Part shown: piece after piece, positions 43,633 through 57,874 of the stretch
Numbering within the stretch: position 1 is the first letter of the stretch
Layout: the number at the start of each line of letters is the position of its first letter
Origin: Spelaeicoccus albus
GTDB taxonomy: Bacteria > Actinomycetota > Actinomycetes > Actinomycetales > Brevibacteriaceae
Reading direction: 5' to 3'
NCBI RefSeq assembly: GCF_013409065.1
Contig: NZ_JACBZP010000001.1
Span: 248,001-312,000, forward strand
DNA: 64,000 nucleotides
Translations under genes and position numbers: made by a program
The notes under the pieces: model-generated
The model's database searches: none
Seen by the model: only the letters and a program-made list of their open reading frames with translations
Told to the model about the DNA's origin: nothing

Positions 43633-44901
43633 ATGCCCATCAGCGGCTCGCTCAACATCACGGCCGTCAATCCCGATCCGGCGCTGCTCATGCTGCCGTG
43701 GCGGACGCCGCTCGAGGAATGGCCCGAATCGGCGCTGGTCGGGCTTCCCCGCGGAATTTCCCGGCACATCGTCCGATTCGCGTCGCTTTCGCACTCAGTC
43801 ATTGCCGTCAAGGAAACCCGCGAACACTTCGCCCGGCGCGAATACCAGCTGCTCCGACTGCTCGGCCGGCTCGATGTGCCGTGCGTGTCCCCTGTCGCCG
43901 TCATCACGGGCCGCGCCGATGCACAAGGCAACGAGCTCGAGTGCGCCCTTGTCACTGAGCATTTGAAATTCTCACTTCCCTACCGCGCCCTTTTCTCGCA
44001 AATGCTCCGCGAGGATACCGCCACGCGTTTGATCGATGCGCTGGCCGTCCTACTGGTACGGCTGCATCTTGTTGGCTTCTTCTGGGGCGACGTTTCCTTG
44101 TCGAATACGCTGTTCCGCCGGGATGCCGGAGCATTTGCCGCTTACTTGGTCGACGCCGAGACCGGGGAGCTGTACGACACGCTCAGCGATGGCCAACGCG
44201 AACACGACCTCGAAATCGCCCGGGTGAACATTGCCGGCGAACTCTTCGACCTGCAGGCCGGCGAGCTGGTGAGTGAAGATTTCGATCCGCTGCCGATCAG
44301 CGAGCAGATCCTCACCCGTTACCGGTCGCTGTGGGCCGAGTTGACCGAGGCCGAGTCATTTGCGCTCGAAGACCGCTGGCGGGTGGATGCGCGCGTGCGG
44401 CGGCTCAACGACTTGGGTTTCGACGTCGGCGAATTCGCGATCACTACGGATTTCGACGGCACGACCGTTCAGATCCAGCCCAAGGTCGTGGACGCCGGCC
44501 ATCACCAGCGCCGGCTGCTGCGCCTGACCGGACTCGATGCCGGGGAGAACCAGGCGCGCCGGCTCTTGAACGACTTGGATTCGTTCGGGGCCGAGACCGA
44601 TCAGCAAGCGGCCGATGAGGAGATCGTCGCGCATCAATGGCTTACCCGAGTCTTCGAGCCGACTATTCGGTCGGTGCCGCGCGAACTGACCGGAAAACTC
44701 GAACCGGCCGAACTTTTCCATGAAGTGCTCGAGCATCGGTGGTTCATGGCACAGGCCGCCGAACACGAGATCGGCATGAAGCAGGCAGTCGAGTCGTACA
44801 TCGACAACGTGCTGCGCCACCGGCGCGATGAAGCGTCAATCATCGGCTTGGAGACGTCGTCCATTCCGATTCTTGCCCGCCATCCGGAAGAAGATTGGTA
44901 A
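43633..44901 (+). CDS. DUF4032 protein with kinase-like fold
   Basis: About 422 residues from ATG at 43633 with GAAGG upstream. It matches the actinobacterial DUF4032 family with an N-terminal kinase-like part (SHSVIAVKETREHFARREYQ, LHLVGFFWGDVSLSNTLF, AYLVDAETGELY) in which GDVSLSNTL corresponds to the catalytic loop of lipopolysaccharide-kinase-like enzymes. The C-terminal half (about 210-420) is helical. Activity is unproven. It is monocistronic with no clear partner. Confidence 0.85.
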   Translation: MPISGSLNITAVNPDPALLMLPWRTPLEEWPESALVGLPRGISRHIVRFASLSHSVIAVKETREHFARREYQLLRLLGRLDVPCVSPVAVITGRADAQGNELECALVTEHLKFSLPYRALFSQMLREDTATRLIDALAVLLVRLHLVGFFWGDVSLSNTLFRRDAGAFAAYLVDAETGELYDTLSDGQREHDLEIARVNIAGELFDLQAGELVSEDFDPLPISEQILTRYRSLWAELTEAESFALEDRWRVDARVRRLNDLGFDVGEFAITTDFDGTTVQIQPKVVDAGHHQRRLLRLTGLDAGENQARRLLNDLDSFGAETDQQAADEEIVAHQWLTRVFEPTIRSVPRELTGKLEPAELFHEVLEHRWFMAQAAEHEIGMKQAVESYIDNVLRHRRDEASIIGLETSSIPILARHPEEDW

Positions 44902-44992
44902 TCGTCTTCCATATAGTGATCGGTGGTTCCACCCGGTCAACGCTGCAGTTATTGTCGAGACAAACGATTACTTGCAGAAAGGTCCGCCCCAC

Positions 44993-45772
44993 GTGAACAT
45001 CAAGGATTTGTACGACCTGTCCGGCCGTAAGGCGGTAGTCGTCGGCGCCGGAAGCGGACTGGGGGCAGCTGCCGCAAGCGGACTCGCCGATTTCGGCGCC
45101 TTCGTCGTCGCCGCCGATCTCAACTCGGACGGCGCCGAAGAGACCGTGCGCCGGATCACCGAATCCGGCGGCAAAGCCGTCGCGGCATCACTGGACGTGA
45201 CCGACACGGCCGCCGTCGACGCGTGCGCGGCCGAACACGCGGACGCCGAGATCCTGGTGGTCACGCCCGGATACAACGCTCGCCGGCGACTGCTCGACAC
45301 CTCCGACGACGATTTCGACACAGTCATCGACGTCAACCTCAAGGGCACGTACCGGCTGATGCGCGCATTCGGCGGTTTCATGGCCGAGCGCGGCAAGGGC
45401 TCGATCATCACGTTCGCGAGTTTCCGTGCCGTTGTTGTGGAACCGGGCCAGGGGCTGTACGCGGCGGCCAAAGCCGGCGTCGTCCAGCTCACCAAAACCA
45501 TGGCGACCGAGCTCGGCTCCAAGGGCGTGCGCGTCAATGCCATCCTGCCGGGCGCGTTTGAAACGCCGCTGACCACGCAAATCAAATCCGATCCCGAGTG
45601 GTGGGGCGCCTACGAGCAAAAGAGCGCGTTGAAGCGCTGGGCACAGCCGCACGAGATCGCCGGCGCCATCGTCTTCCTGGCCGGCGACGCGGCGTCCTTC
45701 GTCACCGGATCGCAGCAGCTCGTGGACGGCGGCTGGCTCGCAGCCGACGGGCGCTTCGAACCGACTCTCTAG
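44993..45772 (+). CDS. SDR family oxidoreductase (sugar or polyol dehydrogenase type)
   Basis: 259 residues from GTG at 44993 (AAAGG upstream). Cofactor motif VVVGAGSGLGAAAA and catalytic YAAAKAG (Y-x3-K) with Ser in ITFASF are present. The conserved NNAG is replaced by VTPGYNARRR, so the substrate pocket floor is atypical. The family is near gluconate 5-dehydrogenase/KduD. It lies 53 bp upstream of an MFS transporter gene, suggesting that the pair takes up and oxidises a sugar acid or similar. Confidence 0.88.
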   Translation: MNIKDLYDLSGRKAVVVGAGSGLGAAAASGLADFGAFVVAADLNSDGAEETVRRITESGGKAVAASLDVTDTAAVDACAAEHADAEILVVTPGYNARRRLLDTSDDDFDTVIDVNLKGTYRLMRAFGGFMAERGKGSIITFASFRAVVVEPGQGLYAAAKAGVVQLTKTMATELGSKGVRVNAILPGAFETPLTTQIKSDPEWWGAYEQKSALKRWAQPHEIAGAIVFLAGDAASFVTGSQQLVDGGWLAADGRFEPTL

Positions 45773-45825
45773 TTCGGCCCGGCAATTCGGCCACCAGCAA
45801 ATCGACTCAATGAGGAGAAGCCACC

Positions 45826-47169
45826 GTGTCAGCATCAAATCCGGCCCCCGCCGATAGCGCAATGCGCAAGAAGGTCATGCGCAAGGTCGCGTGGCGGCTC
45901 TCGCCATTCCTGGGTCTGTTGTATTTCATCAATTATCTGGACAGGTCGAATATCGGGTTCGCGGCTCCGCACGGCATGAACGAGGCGCTCGGGCTGACCA
46001 GCGCGGCGTTCGGATTGGCGTCCGGTCTGTTCTTCATCGGCTACCTGATCCTCGAGGTGCCGTCGAACTTGGCCTTGCACAAGTTCGGCGCCCGCCGCTG
46101 GATTGCGCGCATCATGGTGTCCTGGGGCATTGTGGCGTCGATCATCGCGTTCGTGCCCAATGCCGGCACGTTGTACGTCCTGCGGTTCCTGCTGGGCATT
46201 GCCGAAGCGGGATTCTTCCCGGGCATCATCTTATTTTTGACGTTCTGGTTCCCGCGGCGTGAGCGGGCCAAGGCCGTCGCGCTGTTCATGCTGGCAGTGC
46301 CGCTGTCATCGGTGATCGGCTCCCCATTGTCCGGCTGGCTCATCTCCGTGGGTCACCAAATCCTGTTCGGCCTCGACGGCTGGCGGTTCATGTTCCTAGT
46401 CGAGGGCGTACCGGCCATCATCGTCGGGGTCATCTGCTGGTGGTTCCTGACCGATAAGCCGCAGGATGCCAAATGGCTCGCCGACGACGAGCGGGCCTGG
46501 CTGCAAAAGGAAATGGACACCGAGGCGGCGGAGACCGGCCAGCGGTACCACTATCCGTTGAAGAAGGCGCTCACCCAGCCGCGCATCCTGCTCTTGGCGT
46601 TCGTCTACTTCGGCATCGTGTACGGCCTCTACGCGGTGGGGTTCTTCCTGCCGACGATCATCGCCGGCTTCCAAGAAACGTTCAATACGCATTACTCGGT
46701 GTTCCAGCAGGGCCTGATCGTGGCCATCCCCTACGTGTTCGGCTGCTTTGCCATGTACTTCTGGGCCAAGCACGGCGACAAGACCGGCGAGCGGGTGTGG
46801 CACGTGGCGATACCGTCGATCGTGGGAGGCATCGCCATTCCCATCGCGTTGTATTTGCACTCGCCGTTCACCACCATGATTGCCGTGACCATCTGCGCAA
46901 TGGGGATCTGCGCCGCGCTTCCGGCGTTTTGGCCGTTGCCGACCACGTTCCTCACGGGCGCTGCCGCAGCCGGCGGCATTGCGCTGATCAACTCGCTGGG
47001 CAACCTGGCCGGATTCTTCGGCCCGTACATCACCGGGTGGCTGACCGACGCGACGGGCAGCGAAAAGGCCGGGTTGTGGGTGGTGGGTGCCGTCATGGTG
47101 GCCGCCGGCCTGGTGGCAGTGGCTCTGCGCGCGGCTCCCAAGCCGGACGATGCCTCGGTGGGTTCCTGA
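45826..47169 (+). CDS. MFS transporter of the anion:cation symporter type
   Basis: 447 residues with twelve TM helices. The start MRKKVMRKVAWRLSPFLGLL, LYFINYLDRSNIGFAA and SGLFFIGYLILEVPSNLALH are hallmarks of the ACS (phthalate/tartrate/glucarate permease) family, which imports organic acid anions with a proton. GGAGAAGCCACC precedes the GTG start. It is in operon with the SDR. The substrate is probably a sugar acid or dicarboxylate. Confidence 0.93.
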   Translation: MSASNPAPADSAMRKKVMRKVAWRLSPFLGLLYFINYLDRSNIGFAAPHGMNEALGLTSAAFGLASGLFFIGYLILEVPSNLALHKFGARRWIARIMVSWGIVASIIAFVPNAGTLYVLRFLLGIAEAGFFPGIILFLTFWFPRRERAKAVALFMLAVPLSSVIGSPLSGWLISVGHQILFGLDGWRFMFLVEGVPAIIVGVICWWFLTDKPQDAKWLADDERAWLQKEMDTEAAETGQRYHYPLKKALTQPRILLLAFVYFGIVYGLYAVGFFLPTIIAGFQETFNTHYSVFQQGLIVAIPYVFGCFAMYFWAKHGDKTGERVWHVAIPSIVGGIAIPIALYLHSPFTTMIAVTICAMGICAALPAFWPLPTTFLTGAAAAGGIALINSLGNLAGFFGPYITGWLTDATGSEKAGLWVVGAVMVAAGLVAVALRAAPKPDDASVGS

Positions 47170-47220: not shown

Positions 47221-47284
47221 CGCCGAGAGTGGAGTAGTTGTCGGTTTTCGGGTCCGGCAACCGACAACAACTCCACTCTCGGCG
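47221..47284. repeat. Palindromic element B (64 bp), upstream of the DUF559-type gene
   Basis: Arms at 47221-47244 and 47261-47284, of which CGAGAGTGGAGTAGTTGTCG is the core, pair with a single mismatch around a 16-nt loop. It shares a 29-bp identical arm plus loop-edge with element C. It lies 100 bp before the DUF559-type gene start. Confidence 0.85.
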
Positions 47285-47384
47285 AGGCGGGCAGGTTTCG
47301 TCCACAGGCGGTACGCGGATTTCCGTTTTCCACAGATTCCCAAAACGCGCTACGCCGTCGCCGCGGACCGGTTTACGTGGACGT

Positions 47385-48374
47385 ATGGACACGAATCATC
47401 CGACGGTTTTCACGGTCCGCGAAGCACTCGAACACGGGCTAACCCGCGGCAACCTTCGAGCAAATTCTCTGATCGCGCCGAGCCGAGGCATCCGCATCGA
47501 CGCCGAGCGGTGCGGGGAACTCTGGATGCGGTGTACTGCCGCATTGTTGGCGCGGCCCGGCGCGGTCATCAGTCACCACACCGCTGCGGAATTATTCGGC
47601 CTTCCCGGGCCGCGCGCAACGACCGTGCACGTGACGGAAACGAACTTGCACGGCCGGTGGAAAGATCACGGCGTCCGAAACGGCGTGACATCGCATCGCA
47701 ATGTCATTGCGGCGGCGGACATCATGATGGTCGGCACCCGGGTGATCGATCCGACGTCGTTCCTCACCGGGCGCCGGGCGGTGGACCAGCTCGACGCCGC
47801 GGCCGCTGGGGCAAACGGTTCTCCGGGCGGTCCGGTTCTCCCCGTCACGACGCCGGTGCGCACGCTTATCGATCTGGCCGCCGCCGGCTGGTCGCGCAGC
47901 AGCCTTGTCGTGGCCGGAGATGCCTTGGTCAGCGATCGGTTCGCCCTGGCCACGCCCGAGGATATCGGCCGTGCCGTGCGCCGCCTGCACGGCGTCCGCG
48001 GCGTCCGCACTTTGCGTGAGGCGAGCCGGCTCATCCGCACCGGGACGGACTCCGCCATGGAAAGTGTCACTCGGCTGATGTTCATCGACGGCGGCCTGCC
48101 CGAACCCGAAATCAACGTTCCGCTCTACGATCCGGTCTCCGGCGAGTGGCTGGCCCGGCCCGATCTGAGTTATCGGCGGTGGAAGCTCGCTTTCGAGTAT
48201 GACGGTGAGCATCACCGCACCGATAAGGATCAGTGGCAGCGCGATGTCCGCCGGAGGGACCGTTATACGGAAGTCGGGTGGCAGTTGAAAGTGCTGACGA
48301 AGCGTAGCGTGAAAGACGAACCGGAGGTGACCATCGCCACTATCCGCCGCCTCATCGCGTCGAGAGTGGAGTAG
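47385..48374 (+). CDS. AbiEi-like/DUF559 (Vsr-fold) nuclease-like protein
   Basis: 329 residues from ATG at 47385. The N-terminal part (about 1-150) has the AbiEi-antitoxin-like pattern HHTAAELFGLPGP and resembles WYL-free abortive infection regulators. The C-terminal part (about 240-320) is a DUF559 domain: ARPDLSYRRWKLAFEYDGEHH, DKDQWQRDVRRRDRYTEVGW, with a PD-(D/E)xK-like Asp and Glu (RPD...EYDG). This family is related to the very short patch repair fold. Whether it cuts DNA is unknown. The stop lies inside palindrome C. It has no partner toxin gene. Confidence 0.8.
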   Translation: MDTNHPTVFTVREALEHGLTRGNLRANSLIAPSRGIRIDAERCGELWMRCTAALLARPGAVISHHTAAELFGLPGPRATTVHVTETNLHGRWKDHGVRNGVTSHRNVIAAADIMMVGTRVIDPTSFLTGRRAVDQLDAAAAGANGSPGGPVLPVTTPVRTLIDLAAAGWSRSSLVVAGDALVSDRFALATPEDIGRAVRRLHGVRGVRTLREASRLIRTGTDSAMESVTRLMFIDGGLPEPEINVPLYDPVSGEWLARPDLSYRRWKLAFEYDGEHHRTDKDQWQRDVRRRDRYTEVGWQLKVLTKRSVKDEPEVTIATIRRLIASRVE

Positions 48375-48421
48375 TTGTCGGTTTTCGGGCCCAAAAACCG
48401 ACAACTACTCCACTCTCGACG
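48358..48421. repeat. Palindromic element C (64 bp), at the end of the DUF559-type gene
   Basis: Arms at 48359-48385 and 48394-48420 are perfect 27-bp complements with an 8-nt loop (one further outer pair). The left arm begins inside the gene and carries its TAG stop. It is followed by the operon of the FadH-like enzyme on the other strand. Confidence 0.9.
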
Positions 48422-48431
48422 ACGGGGGAGG

Positions 48432-50474
48432 TCAGGCGAGGGCGGTGGCGGCCTGCAGCGCGTCGTCGAAAGCGCGGACGGCGTTCAATCCGGACGCGTC
48501 GCGGGCGCCTCCGATCACGGTGTGCGGGATTCCGCCGCCAGCGAGCTCGGCGGCCAGCGTCGTGCTCGGCTCCTGTCCGGCAGCGATCACCACCGTGTCG
48601 GCAGGGATCAACCGTTCGCTGCCGTCGTCGACACCGGTACCGGATTCGGCGATCCACACGCCGTCGTCGGTGATCCTCCGATAGGCCACGTCCGTGAGGG
48701 TTTGTACGCCGGCGCTGCGAATGGAGGCCACGACAGCCCACCGCGTGGAGGGGCCGATACCGGCGCCGATCCGTCCCGACCGTCGCATGATCGTCACTTG
48801 GCGAGCGCTCGGCGCGCGACCGCCGCTTTCCGTCAGTCCGTGCGAGCGGGCAAAGCGTTCGCGGGCGGCCTCGTCATCGATGCCTGCGGCGTCCGGGCAG
48901 GCAAGCAGCTCGGACAGGTCGACGGCGATACCTCCGGCGCCGATCACCGCCACGCGTCGCCCGACAGTGTCCAGCGCATCGAACGCCTGGTGGTAATTGA
49001 GCACATGCGGCAAGTCCGCGCCGGGCAGGTCGACGGCGCGGGGCTCGACGCCTGTCGCGACGACGACGTGTTCGTAACCGGCCAAGTCGGCGGCCGTCAC
49101 GCGCCTGCCCAGTCGGATTGCAACGCCGAGCCTCGGTAGTTCGTTCTCGAAATAGCGGATGGTCTCGCCGAAGTCTTCCTTGCCCGGCACGCGGCACGCC
49201 AGGCGGAACTGGCCGCCGATTCGCGACTCGGCATCGAAGAGGTCGACGGCGTGACCGGCCTGGGCCAACGTCAGCGCGGCCTGCATGCCTGCCGGTCCGG
49301 CGCCCACGACCGCGAATCGACGTGTTGATGCCCGGACCGTCGACGACGCGGCCGGCGGATCGGGAAGGGGAAAGCGCAGCTCCCGGCCGGCGCGCGGATT
49401 GACAAGGCAGGACACGGCGGCGTCGCCGATCGACCTGTCGATGCAGGCCTCGTTGCATCCAATGCACGTGTTGACGAAATCGGGTCGTCCGGCCTTCGCC
49501 ACTATCGCCGGATCGGCAAGGAACGGTCTGGCCATCGAGACCAGATCCACGCGGCCGGCGGCCAGCACCTCCTCGGCCTGCGTCATCGAATTGATCCGGT
49601 TCGACCCGATCACCGGCACGTCGAAGCCCGCCGCGCGCACGGCGCCGCGCAGACGGGCGGCCACCTCGATCCACATGCCGTGCGGCACCAGACCCTGCAC
49701 GGTGGGTGTCCGGGATTCGTGCCAGCCGATGCCCACGTTGACGGCGTCCGCGCCGGCGCGCACCAGTTCGACGGCGAGCGCATCGTGTTCGTCCGCTGTC
49801 GACGATCCCTTCATCAGGTCGGCGCCGGACGTGCGCGCGATGACCGGCACGTCGACGGCCCGCCGCACGGCCCGCACCACTTCGCTGGGGAACCTGGCGC
49901 GCCGCCCGGCATCCCCGCCCCACTCGTCGTCGCGCAGATTCGTCACCGGCGAAGCGAACTGGTTGAGCAGGTAGCCTTCGGACGCCATGATCTCGACGGC
50001 GTCGAAGCCGGCTTCGACGGCGAACCGGGCGCCGGCCGCGAAGTCGTCGATGGTCTGCCGGATCTGCTCGTCCGACATGGCCTCCGGCTCACACCGGGAA
50101 AAACCGCTGTAGACCGCGGACGGCGCCACCGGGGTCATGCCGAATGCGCTTTCAAAAGCGTACCGGCCGGCATGGAACAGTTGCAGCGCGATAGTGCCGC
50201 CGGCGGCGTGCACGTCGCGCGCGACCCGCCGAAGACGCCGGACGTCGTCCGGTTCGGTCAGGATCGCATAGCCCCGCCCGCCCGCACCGACACGGTTGAC
50301 GGCGATGCCGCCCGTCACGATGAGATCGGCGCCGCCGCGAACACGCTCGACGTAGAACGCGGCGAGATCGCTGCCGTCGCCGACCGTCTCGAGATTCATG
50401 TGCATCGACCCCATCAGGATGCGATGCTTCAATTCGAGTGCGCCGATCCGGGCCGGCTCCGACCAGCGCGGCAT
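48432..50474 (-). CDS. FadH-like 2,4-dienoyl-CoA reductase / OYE family flavoprotein
   Basis: 680 residues in the FadH layout. An FMN-binding TIM barrel (about 1-335) contains FHAGRYAFE and a substrate helix; a 4Fe-4S cluster motif CIGCNEACIDR then CLVNPRAGRE (about 340-370) follows; then FAD (VVGAGPAGMQAALTLAQAGH) and NAD(P) (VAVIGAGGIAVDL) Rossmann domains. E. coli FadH reduces 2,4-dienoyl-CoA using NADPH. Here the position after the enoyl-reductase gene (stop/start abutting) suggests it reduces cyclic diene acyl-CoA. Last gene of the four-gene operon. Confidence 0.92.
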   Translation of the reverse strand: MPRWSEPARIGALELKHRILMGSMHMNLETVGDGSDLAAFYVERVRGGADLIVTGGIAVNRVGAGGRGYAILTEPDDVRRLRRVARDVHAAGGTIALQLFHAGRYAFESAFGMTPVAPSAVYSGFSRCEPEAMSDEQIRQTIDDFAAGARFAVEAGFDAVEIMASEGYLLNQFASPVTNLRDDEWGGDAGRRARFPSEVVRAVRRAVDVPVIARTSGADLMKGSSTADEHDALAVELVRAGADAVNVGIGWHESRTPTVQGLVPHGMWIEVAARLRGAVRAAGFDVPVIGSNRINSMTQAEEVLAAGRVDLVSMARPFLADPAIVAKAGRPDFVNTCIGCNEACIDRSIGDAAVSCLVNPRAGRELRFPLPDPPAASSTVRASTRRFAVVGAGPAGMQAALTLAQAGHAVDLFDAESRIGGQFRLACRVPGKEDFGETIRYFENELPRLGVAIRLGRRVTAADLAGYEHVVVATGVEPRAVDLPGADLPHVLNYHQAFDALDTVGRRVAVIGAGGIAVDLSELLACPDAAGIDDEAARERFARSHGLTESGGRAPSARQVTIMRRSGRIGAGIGPSTRWAVVASIRSAGVQTLTDVAYRRITDDGVWIAESGTGVDDGSERLIPADTVVIAAGQEPSTTLAAELAGGGIPHTVIGGARDASGLNAVRAFDDALQAATALA

Positions 50475-51287
50475 CTAGCGAGTCGGGCGCGGCGGAAGGC
50501 TCAGCGGATCGGTCGTGTCGTGCCAGAACGGCGGCGCAACGACCGACAGCCCGCCGTCGACGACGAGAGTTTGCCCGGTGATGTATTCGGACTGGTCGGA
50601 CAGCAGGAACTTGATTGCCCCGGCCATATCGTCGACGGTGCCCGGCTTGCCCTTGGGGATCTTTTGCAGCACTGTCTCGATCGGAGCCTGCCCCGGAACC
50701 TTGTCGTAGAAGTATTCGAGCGAATCCGAGTCGATAAGACCGCCGTTGACGCCGTTGACGTTGATGCCGTATCCGGCGAACTCGACGGCCATATAGCGGA
50801 TGAAGCTCTCGACCGCGGCCTTGTAGGAGCCGAGCGCCGCGTACGTCGGGTACGCGCGGACGCTGCCGTAACTGGTGACGGCGACGATCCGGCCGCCGTC
50901 GTCCATCAGCTTCACGGCTTCTTGCGCGCCGAGAACGAACGGGCGAACGTTCATGGCGTACGACCTGTCGAGGTGGTGGGACTTCAGGTCGACGATCTTT
51001 TTGAAGGCGGACGCCGCGGCATTGTTCACGAAGTAGTCGACGCGCCCGTACTTCTCGGCGGCCACGTCGAAGATGCGCGGGATGTCCTCGGGATTCTCGA
51101 CGTCGGCCTGCACCGTGACGCCGTCGCCGCCGAGTTCGCGCAGCCGGGCGACGACTTTCTCGGCCAACTCGGCGTTCTTCTTGTAGTTGACGACTACCGA
51201 GGCACCCTCGGCCGCGAGCATTTCGGCGAGCCGGGCGCCGATTCCCCTGGAGGCGCCCGTGATGACTGCGACTTTAGAGTTCGTCAC
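50475..51287 (-). CDS. FabL/ChcA-type enoyl-thioester reductase (SDR)
   Basis: 270 residues. It is an SDR with GASRGIG (11-17) and NNAAAS (88-93) in place of NNAG. Tyr149 and Lys156 in TYAALGSYKAAVE are spaced Y-x6-K, the enoyl-reductase pattern of FabI and FabL, not the Y-x3-K of other SDRs. The segment SYGSVRAYPTYAALGSYK aligns with B. subtilis FabL. Streptomyces ChcA, 1-cyclohexenylcarbonyl-CoA reductase, is another SDR enoyl reductase. A reductase of alpha,beta-unsaturated thioesters is likely. Overlap with the FadH-like gene is nil but they abut. Confidence 0.87.
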   Translation of the reverse strand: MTNSKVAVITGASRGIGARLAEMLAAEGASVVVNYKKNAELAEKVVARLRELGGDGVTVQADVENPEDIPRIFDVAAEKYGRVDYFVNNAAASAFKKIVDLKSHHLDRSYAMNVRPFVLGAQEAVKLMDDGGRIVAVTSYGSVRAYPTYAALGSYKAAVESFIRYMAVEFAGYGINVNGVNGGLIDSDSLEYFYDKVPGQAPIETVLQKIPKGKPGTVDDMAGAIKFLLSDQSEYITGQTLVVDGGLSVVAPPFWHDTTDPLSLPPRPTR

Positions 51288-51293
51288 TGATTT

Positions 51294-52499
51294 CTAACCT
51301 TCCGCTGACTGTGCACGGGCGGCGCGGGCGAATACGTCCCGCGCGACGACCGTCTTTTGGATCTCGTTGGTGCCTTCTTCGAACCGCTGGGCCCTTGCGT
51401 CACGGTACACGCGTTCGATCTTTTGCGTTTGCCAGTATCCGAGCCCGCCGTGTATTTGCAGGGCCTTATCGGTCACGCGGGTGAGCATGTCGACCGCCGT
51501 CATCTTGGCGATCGACGACATGGCCGTATCGCGCTCACCGCCGTCCTGCCAGCGCGAGGCCGCCTCGAGGACGACTGCCCGCGCGGCCTGAATGTCGGCC
51601 TCGTTCTCGGCGATCATGAACGAGATCGCCTGCCGGGCGGCAAGCGGCTTACCGAACGTGACGCGCTTCAACGCGTACCCGACAGCGAGCTCTTGGGCGC
51701 GCTCGGCCAGGCCGACGCAGCTCATGGCCACCGAAATGCGGCTCGGCGTCAGGAAGCCGCCGAGTGCGACGTCCAACCCCTCGCCTTCCTGTCCGAGACG
51801 CGCCGCGGCCGGAACCGGGGTGTCGGTGAAGTACAGCTCGGCATGGTCGGTTCCGTGCACGCCCATGGTCTTGGAGGTGTCGACGACCTCGACTCCCGGA
51901 GCATTCCGGTCGACGAGCAACGCAACGGTGCCGTCCTTGCCGGTCGATCCTTCGAGCCGGGCGAACAACAGCCAATAGTCGCAGCGCACGCCGAAGGTGA
52001 TCAGATGCTTCGCGCCCGTCAGGTAGTAGGTATCGCCGTCGCGGCGGACCGTCGACGTGATGTCGGCGCCGGTACCGTTGCCCGGCTCGGTCAAGGTGAA
52101 CGCCACCTTGATGTCGCCGGCGATACTGGGCCGCACAAACTTTTCGCGCTGGACGTCGTCGGCGTACGGGTTCATGGCCCGCCACGTGCCGTTGACGACG
52201 TGCACGATCATCCTGATCGACGCGTGCGAGCGGGAAAAGACTTCCATGAGCCGCATCCATTGCACGAAAGTCAGGCCTCGGCCGCCGAGCTCGGCCGGGG
52301 CGGCCAGCGACAGGTAGCCGCGGGTCTTCAGCTCGGTCCACAACTCTTCGGGCACGTACCCGTCACCGGCTTCAATGGTCTCGGCCCATTCCTCGCCGGG
52401 CCCGACCGTCCAGTCCGTGACCTCGGCCAGCAAGGCATCGAAAGCGTCGTCGGCAAGCCCCGCCGCTCCGCGTCCGGCGGCGGCTTCCTGGGTGGTCAC
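51294..52499 (-). CDS. Acyl-CoA dehydrogenase
   Basis: 401 residues with all typical parts: an N-terminal helical region, FTLTEPGNGTGADITSTV and GAKHLITFG of the middle domain, and a C-terminal domain with QIHGGLGYWQ and the catalytic-Glu-containing segment YRDARAQRFEEGTNEIQ. It oxidises or, in reverse, handles acyl-CoA double bonds using FAD and an electron-transfer flavoprotein. It abuts the EPSPS-like::ligase stop with no gap and is 6 bp from the enoyl reductase gene, so it belongs to the same operon. Confidence 0.95.
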   Translation of the reverse strand: MTTQEAAAGRGAAGLADDAFDALLAEVTDWTVGPGEEWAETIEAGDGYVPEELWTELKTRGYLSLAAPAELGGRGLTFVQWMRLMEVFSRSHASIRMIVHVVNGTWRAMNPYADDVQREKFVRPSIAGDIKVAFTLTEPGNGTGADITSTVRRDGDTYYLTGAKHLITFGVRCDYWLLFARLEGSTGKDGTVALLVDRNAPGVEVVDTSKTMGVHGTDHAELYFTDTPVPAAARLGQEGEGLDVALGGFLTPSRISVAMSCVGLAERAQELAVGYALKRVTFGKPLAARQAISFMIAENEADIQAARAVVLEAASRWQDGGERDTAMSSIAKMTAVDMLTRVTDKALQIHGGLGYWQTQKIERVYRDARAQRFEEGTNEIQKTVVARDVFARAARAQSAEG

Positions 52500-55493
52500 T
52501 CAGTTACTCCTGTCGTCGATGCGCTGCGAGGCGAGGCTGCCGGCCTGCTCGCGCAGCACGTACTTTTGGATCTTACCCACTGCATTGCGCGGAATCTCAT
52601 CGGTCACTTCGAGCCGTTCGGGCCAGTAGTGTTTCGACACCTCGTTCTCGTCGAGGTACTGCTGCATCTTTTCGAAGGTCAAGGCGCCGCCGGCGGCCGG
52701 GACCACGAACACGCATCCGCGTTCGCCGAGCCGTTCGTCCGGCATGGCCACCAGCGCGACGTCCTCGACGTCCGGATGCCGGTACAGCAATTCTTCGATC
52801 TCGGCGACCGGGATCTTCTCGCCGCCGCGATTGATGACGTCGCGCACCCGCCCGGTGATCCGCAGGAAGCCGGCGTCATCGATGGTGGCAAGGTCGCCGG
52901 TTCGGTACCAGCCGTCGTCCGTGAACGCTTCGGCGGTCAGGTCGTCCCGGCCCAGATACCCGGAGAACATGGTGTCGCTCTTGAGCTCGAAGTTGCCCTC
53001 GGTGCCGTCCGGCAGCAGTTTGCCGGCGTCGTCCACGATCCTCAAGTTCACGCCCTGCAGCGCCCGGCCGTCGGTGCCCCACACCTTGACCGGTTCGTCG
53101 GTGGGAGCGGCAAGCGCGCCCAAGCACGTCTCGGTGGTGCCGAAGGCGCCGCACACCGTCGTGCCCAGCACGCGGGTGGCGCGTTCGGCAAGGGCACGCG
53201 GGACCGCGGCGCCGGTGGCCACGAAGATTCGCAGGCTCGAAGCGGGTGCGGCGCCGTTCTCGACCGCCTTGACCAAGTCGGTAAGGAACGGCGTGGCGGC
53301 CTGCACAAACGTGCCCTTCCAGCCGCGCAGGACTTGAAGCGCGCGCTCGGGGTCCCATTCGGCCTGCAACAGTTGCGGCGCTCCGAGCACGAACGCCAGC
53401 CACATTCCGTAGAGGAACCCGGTCTGATGGGCGAGCGGCGACGGGATGTAGACGGCCTCGTTCCGGCGCAGCCCCAGGTGGCGGATCTCCATGGCGGCGG
53501 CCCGGCTCAAGGTCGTATGGCGCTGAATGACGCCCTTCGGCTCGCCGGACGTTCCGGACGTGAACAGCAACTGCGCCGCTGCCTCGGCGTCCGGGGCGCG
53601 CGCATCGATGGCGGCCCTGTCGACGTCGACGCGGTCGAGTGCGGCGTCCCAGTCGTGCCAGCGGACGCCGGCCGTTTCCGGCAGGGCTTCCGGCTGATCG
53701 GCGCGGATGACAAGAACGTCCGTCAGGTCAAGGTCACCGCCCTCGAGGACAGCTGCCGCTTCGTCGGCGTGCCGACGTCCGCGGAATTCCTCGGGCACGA
53801 TGAACACGCGTGCCTCGGAGCGGCGCAGGGCGAACGCGACTTCGCGCTGGCGGAAGATCGGCATGACCGGGCAGACCACTGCGCCAATGCGCATGGCCGC
53901 CACGGCAATGACGACGAATTCGGACCAGTTCGGCAGTTGGACGGCGACCCGGTCGCCCGGTCCGACGTCGAGGCTCAGCAGCAGGGCGGCCGCGCGATCG
54001 ACGCGTTCGTCGAGATCGTGCCACGTCAGATAGGTCGTTGCGGTCTTCCGGGCATCGACGACGGCCGTTTCGCCCGGGCGCTCGCCCGCCCACCGGCGTA
54101 CCCACTGTTCGCCGGTGACTGCGGCAGCGCGTTCGATGGCGTCTTGATCCACTTGCAGCGCCCTTCGCGATTTGGCGGTAGTCTTCGGTGCCTTCCCGTT
54201 TTCCACTCGCATGTCGAGCCCGAAGAGGTTCATCGAGTCGAGGAACCGGGGGTAGGAAATACGGTACGCGTTCGGGTAGGTCAGCGTGCTGCGCCCCTCG
54301 GCCGCGGACGCCGCCACGGCCAGCGACATGAGCACGCGGTGGTCGTTGAACGAGGACAGGTCGGCGGCCGCCAGCGAGTCGACGCCGCGCACCTTGAGGC
54401 TGCTGCCGTCGAAGTCGAGGTCGCCGCCCATGCCGTTGAGCTGCAGCATCGACGTGACCCTGTCGGATTCCTTCAATCGGACGTGTTCGACGTTCGTGAA
54501 GACGGTCTCGCCGTCGGCAAAGCTGGCCAGTGTGGACAGAATCGGCAGCATGTCGGGGATGTCTCGGCAGTTGACCGTGACGGGGTTCAGCCGGATTCCG
54601 TCATGGACGACGCGCACGCCGCGTGCCTTTTCGTCGAATTCCATCGGCAGGCCCATGCTGGACACGATGTCGAGGAAATCGGCCTCGGGGTGGTCGGAAT
54701 CCACGGCTTTGGTCTGCAGCAGGCCCCGCAAGAGCACGTCGGACGGGTGGATGGCGGCCGCGGCCAGTCCGAACGCGACGGAACCGATGTCCGGGGGCAT
54801 CACGACGTCCGCCGGATGCGCCTGCTGGTTCGGTTCGATCTCGTACCGGTACCCGTCCGCCGATGCGCTCACGTGCAGCCCGAACTGGCGCATCATCTTG
54901 ACGGTCAGGTCGATGTACGTGCGTTCATTGAGCGTGCCGTCGACAACTATCGTCGTGCGGTTCTTGGCAAACGGCGCCAGCAGGATGAGCCCGGAGATCC
55001 ACTGCGACAAGGTGCCGTCGATATGTACCTCTCCCCCGACGGGGCGCCGGGCCTTGACGGCGATGGGCGGGCAGTCGGTCGGGGACTGTGCATCGACGCC
55101 CATTTGACGAAGCGCGTCGAGCAGCGGGCCGATCGGCCGGCGTTGGAAGTATTTCTGGCCGGTGACGACGACGTCCCGGTCGGACAAGCACGCCAGGCCG
55201 ACCATGAAGTACAAGGTCGTGCCGGAGCTTCCGGCCGAGATGGTGCCGCGACGCGGACGGTACTGGCCGCCGTGCACGACGAAGGTGTTGCCGTCGATGT
55301 CGATCTTGATGCCGAGCCCGCGCAGCAGATCGACTGTGTATTGCACGTGGCGGGCATCCGTGAGGCCCGTGATGCGGCTGACTCCGGGCGCCAGGGACGC
55401 GAGGATCAGCGCGCGGTGCGCGTGATATTTCGAGTTGGGCACTTCGACGTCGCCGCGGATGCGACCCGGAGTGCCGAGTACTGACAGATACAT
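52500..55493 (-). CDS. EPSP synthase-like domain fused to acyl-CoA ligase
   Basis: 997 residues from ATG at 55493, the start that aligns with EPSP synthases; 41 further upstream codons are unlikely. Residues 1-430 are EPSP-synthase-like: VPNSKYHAHR (Lys22, Arg27), GSSGTTLY (88-95), RRPIGPLLDALR, SQW (163-165), RDIPDMLP (Asp314), RLKESDR (Glu342, Arg345), NDHR (383-386). Residues about 455-997 are an AMP-forming acyl-CoA ligase: LLFTSGTSGEPKGVI (near 645), YRTGDLATID, GRVRDVINRGGEKI and RNAVGKIQKYVL. No frame disruption is visible, so this is a true fusion, the first gene of the operon. Confidence 0.92.
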   Translation of the reverse strand: MYLSVLGTPGRIRGDVEVPNSKYHAHRALILASLAPGVSRITGLTDARHVQYTVDLLRGLGIKIDIDGNTFVVHGGQYRPRRGTISAGSSGTTLYFMVGLACLSDRDVVVTGQKYFQRRPIGPLLDALRQMGVDAQSPTDCPPIAVKARRPVGGEVHIDGTLSQWISGLILLAPFAKNRTTIVVDGTLNERTYIDLTVKMMRQFGLHVSASADGYRYEIEPNQQAHPADVVMPPDIGSVAFGLAAAAIHPSDVLLRGLLQTKAVDSDHPEADFLDIVSSMGLPMEFDEKARGVRVVHDGIRLNPVTVNCRDIPDMLPILSTLASFADGETVFTNVEHVRLKESDRVTSMLQLNGMGGDLDFDGSSLKVRGVDSLAAADLSSFNDHRVLMSLAVAASAAEGRSTLTYPNAYRISYPRFLDSMNLFGLDMRVENGKAPKTTAKSRRALQVDQDAIERAAAVTGEQWVRRWAGERPGETAVVDARKTATTYLTWHDLDERVDRAAALLLSLDVGPGDRVAVQLPNWSEFVVIAVAAMRIGAVVCPVMPIFRQREVAFALRRSEARVFIVPEEFRGRRHADEAAAVLEGGDLDLTDVLVIRADQPEALPETAGVRWHDWDAALDRVDVDRAAIDARAPDAEAAAQLLFTSGTSGEPKGVIQRHTTLSRAAAMEIRHLGLRRNEAVYIPSPLAHQTGFLYGMWLAFVLGAPQLLQAEWDPERALQVLRGWKGTFVQAATPFLTDLVKAVENGAAPASSLRIFVATGAAVPRALAERATRVLGTTVCGAFGTTETCLGALAAPTDEPVKVWGTDGRALQGVNLRIVDDAGKLLPDGTEGNFELKSDTMFSGYLGRDDLTAEAFTDDGWYRTGDLATIDDAGFLRITGRVRDVINRGGEKIPVAEIEELLYRHPDVEDVALVAMPDERLGERGCVFVVPAAGGALTFEKMQQYLDENEVSKHYWPERLEVTDEIPRNAVGKIQKYVLREQAGSLASQRIDDRSN

Positions 55494-55839: not shown

Positions 55840-56235
55840 ATGAGTCAGACAACACCGAATCCGGTGCATGCCGAGGAAGCCGTCGGTGGAGCGTGCCCAT
55901 CGTTCGTCACGGCGATGGACGTGATAGGCCGCCGCTGGAACGGAATCATCATCGAGGCGATCGGCCGGGGAAATCACGGGTACGCGGAAATCAGCAGGTT
56001 CGTGGGGCATGTCGGCGACACGATGCTCGCCAAGAGGCTGCGCGAACTGGAAGCCGACGGTCTGGTCGAGCGCACCGTCGAAGCAGGCCCCCCGATCCGG
56101 GTGACGTACACGCTCACGGTGGCCGGCTCGGCACTGCTGCCCATCTTGGAAGACATCACCAGCTGGGGACACGCGTACTCGCTGGCGGAATCTCGCGATC
56201 ATCAACCAAACGCACGACCTGAAGGAGCACGCTGA
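55840..56235 (+). CDS. HxlR (DUF24) family transcriptional regulator
   Basis: 131 residues from ATG at 55840 (GGAG upstream, 6 nt spacing). The winged-helix domain is ACPSFVTAMDVIGRRWNGII with HVGDTMLAKRLRELEADGLV and wing VEAGPPIRVTYTLT. HxlR-family proteins often sense quinones, aldehydes or oxidants through a conserved Cys; here Cys22 in GGACPSF near the N-terminus is the candidate. It overlaps the LLM monooxygenase start by 1 bp, so it probably regulates its own operon. Confidence 0.93.
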   Translation: MSQTTPNPVHAEEAVGGACPSFVTAMDVIGRRWNGIIIEAIGRGNHGYAEISRFVGHVGDTMLAKRLRELEADGLVERTVEAGPPIRVTYTLTVAGSALLPILEDITSWGHAYSLAESRDHQPNARPEGAR

Positions 56236-57293
56236 TGGCATTCGAACTCGGTATCCTCACATTCGCCGAAGTCACGGCCGACCCGACGACGGGCGCGGCC
56301 CCGACTCCGGCAGAGAGAATGGCACAGACTTTGGAACAAGCTCGGGTCGCCGACCAGGTCGGGCTGGACGTCTTTGCAGTCGGTGAGCACCATCGCACCG
56401 ATTTCATCTCCTCCGAACCGCATATGCTGTTGGCCGCGGCGGCGGCACAAACGCACGACATCAAACTGGCCAGCGGCGTCACGGTACTCAGCTCGGAGGA
56501 TCCGGTTCGCGTTTTCGAGCACTTCGCCATGCTGGACCTGATTTCGAACGGTCGGGCCGAGATCGTTGCCGGCCGGGGGTCCTACACCGAATCGTTCCCG
56601 CTTTTCGGATACGACTTGGCCGATTACGCCGACTTGTTCCGGGAAAAGCTCGAACTGTTGTTGGCAATCCGGGCGCGCAACCCCGTCACGTGGCAAGGCA
56701 AGTTCCGGGCACCGCTGCTCGACGCCGATATCGCACCGCGCCCGGTCGGCGACCTGCCGATCTGGGTCGGTGTGGGAGGAACCCCGGCGTCGTCGGTTCG
56801 TGCCGGCCGGCTGGGACTGCCGATGGCGCTCGCGCTGCTGTTGGGGCCGATCACCCAGTTCGAAAGCGCCGTCGACCATTACCGGCAGGCGGCCGCGCAG
56901 GCCGGTCACGATGCCGAAGCGCTGAAGATCAGCATTAACGCGCACGGCTATGTCGGCACGACCAGCCAGGGAGCTCGCGACACGATGTACCCGTATTTCC
57001 GCGAAGGAATGCGCGAGAACAATCACCAGCGCGGCGAGGGTTTTTCCATCCCCCGGAACGCGTTCGACGCGCAATCGACGCCGGGCGGCGGTCTACTGGT
57101 CGGCAGCACCGACGAGATCATCGACAAATTGCTGACGTACCACGAGCTCTACGGTCTCTCGCGGGCAGTCATCCAAATGGGATTCGGCGGAGTGCCGCAA
57201 AAAGAACACTTGGAAGCGATCGAACGCCTCGGCACCGAGGTCGCCCCGGTCGTGCGCCGTGAAGTCGCTGCCCGTGGTCGGAGCGCAGCATGA
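56235..57293 (+). CDS. LLM-class flavin-dependent monooxygenase
   Basis: 352 residues of the bacterial luciferase-like barrel: FELGILTFAEVT, GLDVFAVGEHHRTDFISSEP, and MLDLISNGRAEIVAGRGSYTESF. FMNH2 must come from a partner reductase, supplied by the next gene (overlap ATGA). The substrate is unknown; members oxidise alkanesulfonates, quinone-related or aromatic compounds. Control by the redox-sensing HxlR protein suggests a role with toxic electrophiles or aromatics. Confidence 0.93.
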   Translation: MAFELGILTFAEVTADPTTGAAPTPAERMAQTLEQARVADQVGLDVFAVGEHHRTDFISSEPHMLLAAAAAQTHDIKLASGVTVLSSEDPVRVFEHFAMLDLISNGRAEIVAGRGSYTESFPLFGYDLADYADLFREKLELLLAIRARNPVTWQGKFRAPLLDADIAPRPVGDLPIWVGVGGTPASSVRAGRLGLPMALALLLGPITQFESAVDHYRQAAAQAGHDAEALKISINAHGYVGTTSQGARDTMYPYFREGMRENNHQRGEGFSIPRNAFDAQSTPGGGLLVGSTDEIIDKLLTYHELYGLSRAVIQMGFGGVPQKEHLEAIERLGTEVAPVVRREVAARGRSAA

Positions 57294-57874
57294 GCCGGCC
57301 GTTGAATGTCGTAGTTGTCAACGGCAGCCCCAACGTCGCCTCGAAAACGATGGGGCTCGTCGAGCTCATCACGTCCGCCCTCGACGCGAAACTGCCGATC
57401 GAGGTCCGGCGGATCGACGTGTACCGGCTGGGCGAGGGCTTCACGAGTGCCCGAGAGCGCGCGGACGTATCCGACGACGTCGAAGAACAGTTGGCGGCCG
57501 CCGAGACTGCCGATGTCCTCATTGCCGCGTCCCCGGTCTTCCGGGCCTCCTATCCGGGGATGTTCAAACACTTCTTCGATCTCGTCGGCCAATACGCGCT
57601 GGCAAACAAGCCGGTGATCCTGGCGGCGACGGGCGGAAGCGACAGGCACGCCATGATCATCGACCACGAGTTGCGTCCGCTGTTCGCGTTCTTCCAGGCC
57701 AACACGATCCCGGTCGGCTTTTACGCCAACGCCGGCGACTTCGACGGGACCTTGGTGCTCAATGCCGAGGTCTACAGCCGCATCCAGATCGGCTTGGACG
57801 ACGTGATTGAACAGTTCCGCGCAATCGCGGACGATGCACCGGCACGGTCCGAGCTCAGCCCGCTCGGGCACTGA
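57290..57874 (+). CDS. NAD(P)H:FMN oxidoreductase, flavodoxin-like
   Basis: 194 residues. The flavin phosphate loop is VVVNGSPNVASKT at the N-terminus, and ASPVFRASYPGMFKHFFD fits the MsuE/SsuE and CE1759-type FMN reductases. It supplies reduced FMN to the adjacent LLM enzyme. Its ATG overlaps the monooxygenase stop. The last codons lie in a 76-bp direct repeat (57821-57896) that recurs at 59625-59700. Confidence 0.92.
   Translation: MSRPLNVVVVNGSPNVASKTMGLVELITSALDAKLPIEVRRIDVYRLGEGFTSARERADVSDDVEEQLAAAETADVLIAASPVFRASYPGMFKHFFDLVGQYALANKPVILAATGGSDRHAMIIDHELRPLFAFFQANTIPVGFYANAGDFDGTLVLNAEVYSRIQIGLDDVIEQFRAIADDAPARSELSPLGH

Follow-up and report, generated by a model that had tools for sequence, protein, structure and literature searches.

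A conserved fusion of an EPSP synthase-like domain with an acyl-CoA ligase in Spelaeicoccus albus, and its probable place in cyclohexanecarboxyl-CoA biosynthesis

What is the function of a protein that joins the fold of EPSP synthase (EPSPS; 5-enolpyruvylshikimate 3-phosphate synthase) to an AMP-forming acyl-CoA ligase? This question is raised by a 64,000-nucleotide stretch of Spelaeicoccus albus DNA (contig NZ_JACBZP010000001.1, positions 248,001 to 312,000; the window hereafter), for which an earlier note had read one uninterrupted frame at 52500-55493 as such a fusion and had suggested that shikimate, or a similar acid, is passed on as its CoA thioester. We found the frame where it had been placed; it runs from 55493 down to 52500 and is thus a minus-strand gene, a detail that had been left unsaid. 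From its family, its gene neighbourhood and its residue pattern, we consider it highly probable that this protein catalyses the first step in an operon-encoded biosynthesis of cyclohexanecarboxyl-CoA (CHC-CoA) from shikimate, a pathway assignment that, like that of each substrate, we infer from sequence.

The frame is unbroken over 997 amino acids from the ATG at 55493 (1038 codons when counted from the first upstream GTG). Relatives were collected by scanning genome contigs with the fusion protein, and the best 80 of 113 were retained; all counts out of 80 refer to these. Both halves lie in one frame in 75 of the 80 loci (5 of these 75 are cut by a contig end), while three loci carry two adjacent genes instead (L080, L102 and L103) and two hold broken copies (L091 and L104). 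A frameshift, which the note had named as a possible refutation, or an assembly artefact was therefore rejected as the source of the fusion, and the rarity that the note had implied gave way to a conserved family. The bifunctional protein is thus real. A plasmid-borne origin of the gene was rejected as well, since a PLSDB search at E <= 1e-100 gave no match. An AlphaFold2 model from 36 aligned sequences had a mean pLDDT (predicted local distance difference test) of 89.6 and a pTM (predicted template modelling score) of 0.57, and its low-confidence stretch, residues 434-439, lies between the two domains. According to this model both domains are well folded, and because of the pTM value their mutual packing is not fixed. 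As a separate observation, the gene copy of Microbacterium elymi (L104, 8001-11000) is split over three frames and looks like a pseudogene or the product of sequencing errors.

The family is patchily spread. Its carriers include Sinomonas, Arthrobacter, Cellulomonas, Microbacterium, Streptomyces, Lentzea, Micromonospora and Kutzneria, to which metagenome-assembled genomes add Eremiobacterota, Acidothermus and Bacillota. With the window genome counted, this protein family occurs in 1 of 60 genomes of the window genome's own taxonomic family, in at least 5 of 396 of its order and in at least 5 of 396 genomes drawn from its phylum; it occurs in at least 20 of 149 genomes of the phylum of one Eremiobacterota carrier and in at least 10 of 154 of the class of one Bacillota carrier. 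The lower bounds refer to candidates scored per genome, which numbered at most 4 for the order, 12 for the Eremiobacterota phylum, 11 for the Bacillota class and 4 for the phylum draw. When the whole protein was used to search for relatives, each of 59 genomes out of 59 contained a match, and among the matches listed only the window genome matched across both halves.

The two halves also occur as separate genes. An unfused EPSPS-like gene adjoins a ligase gene and an acyl-CoA dehydrogenase-family (ACAD) gene in the class of the Bacillota carrier (L132, L133, L134, L136 and L137) and in one further family of the window's phylum (L143-L146), and the order EPSPS-like, ligase, ACAD was the same in all nine of these loci. 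Separate EPSPS-like and ligase genes stand side by side ahead of ACAD in L103, and in L080 and L102 the pair is present and the sequence ends before any ACAD could appear. The unfused operon copies bear the residue signature of the family that is described below, with Q rather than Y at position 100 in the copies of the Bacillota class (E. coli EPSPS numbering, used throughout unless window-protein numbering is stated). In a tree of 85 rows, from which L056, L067, L077, L082, L086, L090, L091 and L104 were omitted, fused and unfused copies together were split from two AroA rows by a branch with a support of 100/99. The neighbours of the window protein in this tree are the fusions of Homoserinimonas, Microbacterium, Arthrobacter, Sinomonas and Cellulomonas; the AroA branches are very long, so that the tree fixes neither the root nor whether the fusion came first. 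Two observations concern individual unfused copies: in genome G684 a second AMP-forming ligase closes the operon (L137, 913-2478, minus strand), and genome G668 holds a second, degenerate stand-alone EPSPS-like copy (L135, 777-2021, minus strand) in which the equivalents of K22, R124 and G96 are lost and which has no operon partner within the 9 kb fetched.

Judged by profile, the EPSPS-like half falls within AroA. Among solved structures, EPSP synthases are closest to it by sequence (5xwb, E 1.5e-53), all seven motif residues listed in the note (K22, R27, D314, E342, R345, H385 and R386, window-protein numbering) are present as numbered, and it scores 306.8 bits against the AroA profile TIGR01356, for which the cut-off is 287.25. 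Since this equivalog cut-off is passed, automatic pipelines could well call the fusion aroA, and profile-based annotation is liable to give that name to the whole family. The window genome has four EPSP_synthase-family genes, namely the fusion, two MurA (TIGR01072, 535.1 and 415 bits, cut-off 392.7) and one AroA. This separate AroA, for which the note had advised a check, stands alone at G000:C1:2596577-2597815 and scores 361.6 bits against TIGR01356. A similar situation was found in eight other fusion genomes: their fused copies also pass TIGR01356 (296.3-333.1 bits), and in 8 of 8 a second, stronger AroA match lies outside the fusion, in a frame of 429-512 amino acids in seven genomes and of 807 in one. 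The fusion is therefore not placed as the aromatic-pathway EPSPS of its genome. Identity alone does not tell the two families apart, since the EPSPS half shares 27.6% with E. coli AroA and two true AroAs, that of the window genome and that of E. coli, share only 29.8%.

As to the active site, in an alignment of 72 rows (71 loci and the window protein, with L077, L080, L082, L086, L090, L091, L102, L103 and L104 omitted), G96, R124, S170, Q171, D313, K340, E341, R344, H385 and R386 are conserved in 72 of 72 rows, and K22 and R27 in 71 (1 gap). The catalytic and phosphoenolpyruvate (PEP)-site set of AroA (K22, D313, E341, R124, R344, H385 and R386) is thus kept in 71-72 of 72 rows. The site for the phosphate of shikimate 3-phosphate (S3P) was examined through R100, S169/S170, S197 and K340, and only S170 and K340 are kept: R100 is Y in 71 rows and Q in 1 (73 and 10, respectively, when unfused copies are added to make 83 rows), S197 is E in 72 of 72, and the serine pair is cut to a single Ser following Leu in 72 of 72. 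In addition, S23 is Y in 71 of 72 (1 gap). In tobacco EPSPS, a passage of PMC12256929 has the S3P phosphate bound by Lys358, Arg105, Ser206 and the Ser179 amide, and names Asp313, Glu341 and Lys22 (E. coli numbers) as catalytic residues of EPSPS (PMC12256929). By residue equivalence, the tobacco phosphate ligands would correspond to the side chains of E. coli K340, R100 and S197 and the amide of S170.

The AroA of the window genome itself retains S23, D49, R100, SS169-170, S197 and K411, so that S23Y, D49H, R100Y/Q, the serine loss, S197E and K411I belong to the fusion family. Gaps of this AroA at S169 and K411 in the large alignment were settled pairwise: it has SS and K, and the fusion lacks both. 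The same protein differs from E. coli by H at Y200, E at D313 and H at N336 and K340, so these columns do not separate the families, and N336H, which it shares with the fusion, is not diagnostic. Taken together, the residue pattern indicates a 3-phosphate site that is mostly lost, and a PEP and acid/base set that is mostly retained, with D49 and K411 as exceptions. Compared with AroA (EC 2.5.1.19), the EPSPS half shares the fold, K22, D313, E341, H385 and most PEP ligands, and differs in the six changes named above and in its fused or paired CoA-ligase partner. Because the S3P ligands R100, S197 and one Ser of S169/S170 are gone, the EPSPS half probably acts on unphosphorylated shikimate, perhaps still with PEP.

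The C-terminal half has the features of an AMP-forming (ANL) acyl-CoA ligase, with both domains, the P-loop and the C-terminal Lys, as the note had described. In an alignment of 36 rows, consisting of the window protein and 35 relatives chosen from the 80, the P-loop residues T645, S646, G647, T648, G650, P652 and K653 are invariant, as are G973 and the C-terminal K974 (window-protein numbering). The nearest named family is cyclohexanecarboxylate-CoA ligase, TIGR03208, the best NCBIfam match at 464.5 bits, yet this is far under the equivalog cut-off of 792.3; that family is associated with degradation pathways. By sequence the nearest solved structure is the salicylate-AMP ligase 5wm2 (E 2.4e-62), and in a fold search with the fusion protein the top 50 were ligase structures only. 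By sequence and fold alike, the closest structures are aryl-acid adenylating enzymes (CahJ 5wm2, FscC and DhbE; about 25-30% identity), which serve assembly lines built on carrier proteins, such as those for siderophores. A ring acid would be common to these enzymes and the ligase half, whereas the carrier-protein acceptor is a feature of the former.

The fusion gene heads a tight operon at 48432-55493 (Table 1), with gaps of 0, 6 and 0 nt when each frame is taken to begin at its first start codon. ACAD follows the fusion in 74 of the 80 loci; each of the remaining six ends no more than 0.6 kb from a contig end. As to the two reductases, the short-chain dehydrogenase/reductase (SDR) is present in 56 loci and the old yellow enzyme-type reductase (OYE) in 57; either occurs in 68 loci, and ACAD, SDR and OYE occur together in 45. 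Loci that carry the set belong to Actinomycetota, Vulcanimicrobiota (Eremiobacterota) and Bacillota. Its motifs are conserved: EEGT of ACAD is invariant in 74 rows, window included, and among rows picked by identity and coverage the SDR has Y149-x6-K156 in 57 of 57 and the OYE keeps the four cysteines of CxxCx3Cx11C in 55 of 55. The Y-x6-K spacing is that of enoyl reductases, and it argues for a reductive direction of the operon.

Table 1. Domains of the fusion protein and genes of its operon, with window coordinates
Feature	Position	Strand	Evidence
Fusion protein P0001, EPSPS-like + AMP-forming acyl-CoA ligase, 997 aa	52500..55493	-	ORF translation, Pfam
EPSP-synthase-fold domain, residues 9-421	54231..55469	-	PF00275 E 1e-81; PDB 5xwb E 1.5e-53; signature residues
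AMP-binding (ANL ligase) N-terminal domain, residues 466-847	52953..54098	-	PF00501 E 8.7e-72
AMP-binding_C domain incl. K974, residues 898-974	52572..52802	-	PF13193 E 1.4e-12
ACAD-family flavoprotein, candidate FAD-dependent dehydratase/dehydrogenase	51294..52499	-	PF00441/02770/02771
FabL/ChcA-like SDR, candidate cyclohexenylcarbonyl-CoA enoyl reductase	50475..51287	-	best NCBIfam PRK08063 FabL 241.9 bits, under 328 cut-off
FadH/OYE-type FMN/Fe-S/NAD reductase, candidate dienoyl-CoA reductase	48432..50474	-	PF00724 + PF07992

The operon thus combines a ligase, an ACAD, an enoyl-reductase-type SDR and a further reductase, the gene content of a CHC-CoA operon. The CHC-CoA pathway consists of a CoA ligase, an ACAD, a ChcA-like enoyl-type SDR and a further reductase, and the likeness is one of gene content. 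A report of 2020 is said to describe a shikimoyl-CoA synthetase and an FAD-dependent dehydratase in this pathway. A shikimate origin is shared by the ansatrienin side chain, the phoslactomycin starter and omega-cyclohexyl fatty acids; asukamycin is also counted among the CHC-CoA-derived products, and the ansatrienin cluster presumably holds an EPSPS-like gene.

Further context comes from passages of published papers. Labelled shikimate enters the cyclohexane carboxylate moiety of ansatrienin (PMC8788734), the shikimate-derived cyclohexyl-CoA pathway was moved into S. avermitilis to give doramectin (PMC6693128), and in Sulfobacillus genes were reported for omega-alicyclic fatty acids from shikimic acid (PMC4378227). 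Cyclohexyl lipids are on record for Alicyclobacillus (PMC10562698), the actinobacterium Herbiconiux may contain cyclohexyl-C17:0 (PMC10011130), CHC-CoA is used as a starter (PMC9730843), and a paper on Agrococcus deals with a prephenate-like acid (PMC9323897). The passages of PMC9730843, PMC6780079, PMC8000086, PMC10562698, PMC5118839 (where a reference concerns Curtobacterium) and PMC3371024 name no relevant gene. The fusion itself is not described in titles, opening lines of abstracts or passages of the openly licensed literature (CC0, CC BY, CC BY-SA) among the matches listed, which is weak evidence of absence. Because of the shikimate-to-cyclohexyl literature on ansatrienin, doramectin, Sulfobacillus and Herbiconiux, the gene set most likely makes CHC-CoA.

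Neighbouring genes in other genomes, in which each cluster was named from one scanned representative, point the same way. A cluster of 3-deoxy-D-arabino-heptulosonate 7-phosphate (DAHP) synthases stands upstream, in divergent orientation, in 8 of 80 loci, all Eremiobacterota (e.g. L096, 4399-5490, minus strand), which suggests a dedicated boost of shikimate supply. A FabF-type synthase cluster is present in 23 of 80 loci and directly upstream of the fusion in 11, and a ketoacyl-synthase III (KAS III) cluster is upstream in five (L060, L062, L063, L079 and L101). The shikimate thioester of the note fits the operon, TIGR03208 as nearest ligase family and the DAHP-synthase cluster, with the substrate itself unproven and the channelling that it proposed conjectural; as a whole the note was partly supported, its interpretation being good in outline and the rarity overstated.

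In the proposed mechanism, the ligase half would activate shikimate, or a derivative made by the N-terminal half, to the acyl-adenylate and then to the CoA thioester. The EPSPS half would be a repurposed enolpyruvyl transferase that no longer binds the 3-phosphate and works on unphosphorylated shikimate, either as free acid or as thioester; most likely it would perform PEP chemistry on a ring hydroxyl, enabling the later elimination of that hydroxyl. The three downstream enzymes (ACAD-like flavoprotein, FadH/OYE reductase and enoyl reductase of ChcA/FabL type) would then strip ring hydroxyls and double bonds in turn to give cyclohexanecarboxyl-CoA. The product most likely feeds omega-cyclohexyl fatty acids or polyketides, and in the window genome, where FabH/FabF-type genes are present, CHC-CoA would most likely prime omega-cyclohexyl fatty acids. 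The genome's three PF08541 matches (89.5, 54.6 and 46.2 bits) and four PF00109 matches (167, 153.1, 29.7 and 20.9 bits) all lie in frames of 342-425 amino acids; since these ketoacyl-synthase frames are all short, there is no sign of a modular polyketide synthase and a fatty-acid primer is the simplest end use.

Several observations weigh against parts of this scheme. With regard to PEP use, position 49 carries H instead of D in 81 of 83 rows, fused and unfused copies together, and position 411 carries I instead of K in 72 of 72 (T in L141); with regard to the substrate, the retention of K340, one S3P-phosphate ligand, in 72 of 72 rows means that the S3P site is not wholly lost. None of ligase, SDR, OYE and ACAD reaches the curated cut-off of the named family closest to it. 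Clusters of 3-hydroxyacyl-CoA dehydrogenase/enoyl-CoA hydratase and thiolase (beta-oxidation) lie upstream in six Arthrobacter-type loci and could fit catabolism, and none of the genome's PF00109 or PF08541 matches falls inside the window, so that this copy has no ketoacyl synthase beside it.

The pathway is most likely a known one, and the chemistry of the EPSPS half is the part of interest. We tentatively propose, as one serious possibility, that the EPSPS fold has been rebuilt as a PEP-driven dehydroxylation tool, which would attach an enolpyruvyl group to a hydroxyl, either of unphosphorylated shikimate or of shikimoyl-CoA supplied by the fused ligase, with enolpyruvate leaving during the reductive deoxygenation to CHC-CoA. 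A somewhat doubtful alternative within the same CHC-CoA pathway is that the EPSPS half is catalytically dead and merely binds shikimate and delivers it to the ligase. D49H and K411I, which touch the PEP site, the remodelled S3P pocket, and the fact that the halves are fused or adjacent in the loci examined except L135 are consistent with such a module. However, the retention of the catalytic and PEP-site set, which extends to the stand-alone operon copies, argues against it, and so does L135, the degenerate extra copy without K22 and R124, in which real decay is visible. Unlikely in our view is a third possibility, in which the same acid/base residues would serve a PEP-independent dehydratase that removes water from shikimate. 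K411I, D49H and R100Y/Q would suit this activity; moreover, shikimate must lose three hydroxyls, and no operon gene matches a classical dehydratase family. With such a dehydratase, however, the PEP ligands K22, R124, R344 and R386 would be invariant without clear reason; moreover, the dehydratase of the pathway is reported to be the ACAD-type flavoenzyme.

It is improbable that the operon is catabolic, serving to take up shikimate, quinate or another alicyclic acid and to degrade it by a CoA-dependent route. The beta-oxidation clusters mentioned above would fit this, as would a permease of the major facilitator superfamily (galactonate/4-hydroxyphenylacetate type) with an SDR at 44828-47169, although these two genes are on the opposite strand and another ORF lies between them and the operon. 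However, the enoyl-type SDR and the FadH/OYE enzyme are reductive, no ring-cleavage enzyme is found among the four operon genes, DAHP-synthase and ketoacyl-synthase clusters adjoin the operon in other phyla, and an EPSPS homologue would have no evident use in degradation. Finally, despite the TIGR01356 scores of this and the eight other fused copies, we hold it very unlikely that this protein is the housekeeping AroA, joined by accident to a C-terminal partner, and rejected this identity because of the separate AroA here and the stronger second match in 8 of 8 other genomes, the loss of S3P-phosphate residues that the own AroA keeps, the distinct tree group and the conserved operon.

If the PEP-driven dehydroxylation were true, EPSPS chemistry would have a second use, in the formation of lipids and polyketides, which might be sensitive to glyphosate and would be found in Vulcanimicrobiota (Eremiobacterota), Bacillota and scattered Actinomycetota. 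The action of an EPSPS on unphosphorylated shikimate would in itself be an unexplained enzymatic step. The fusion would also mark genomes with a probable capacity for cyclohexyl lipids or polyketide starters, among them those of uncultured Vulcanimicrobiota (Eremiobacterota).

Some features of the surrounding window are of separate interest. Downstream of the operon lies an ORF (47238-48374) that matches neither Pfam (1e-5) nor NCBIfam (1e-20). Its two ends are marked by two 71-nt hairpin repeats (47221-47291 and 48358-48428) with arms that are 90% and 97% complementary. The hairpin half-site occurs 14 times in the genome (at most 2 mismatches) versus 0 times for a reversed control, and the repeat is an element resembling miniature inverted-repeat transposable elements (MITE) or repetitive extragenic palindromes (REP). 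On the other side, 56235-57874 holds a luciferase-like flavin monooxygenase (TIGR03858 LLM_2I7G) followed by an MsuE-like FMN reductase, both of which score below cut-off.

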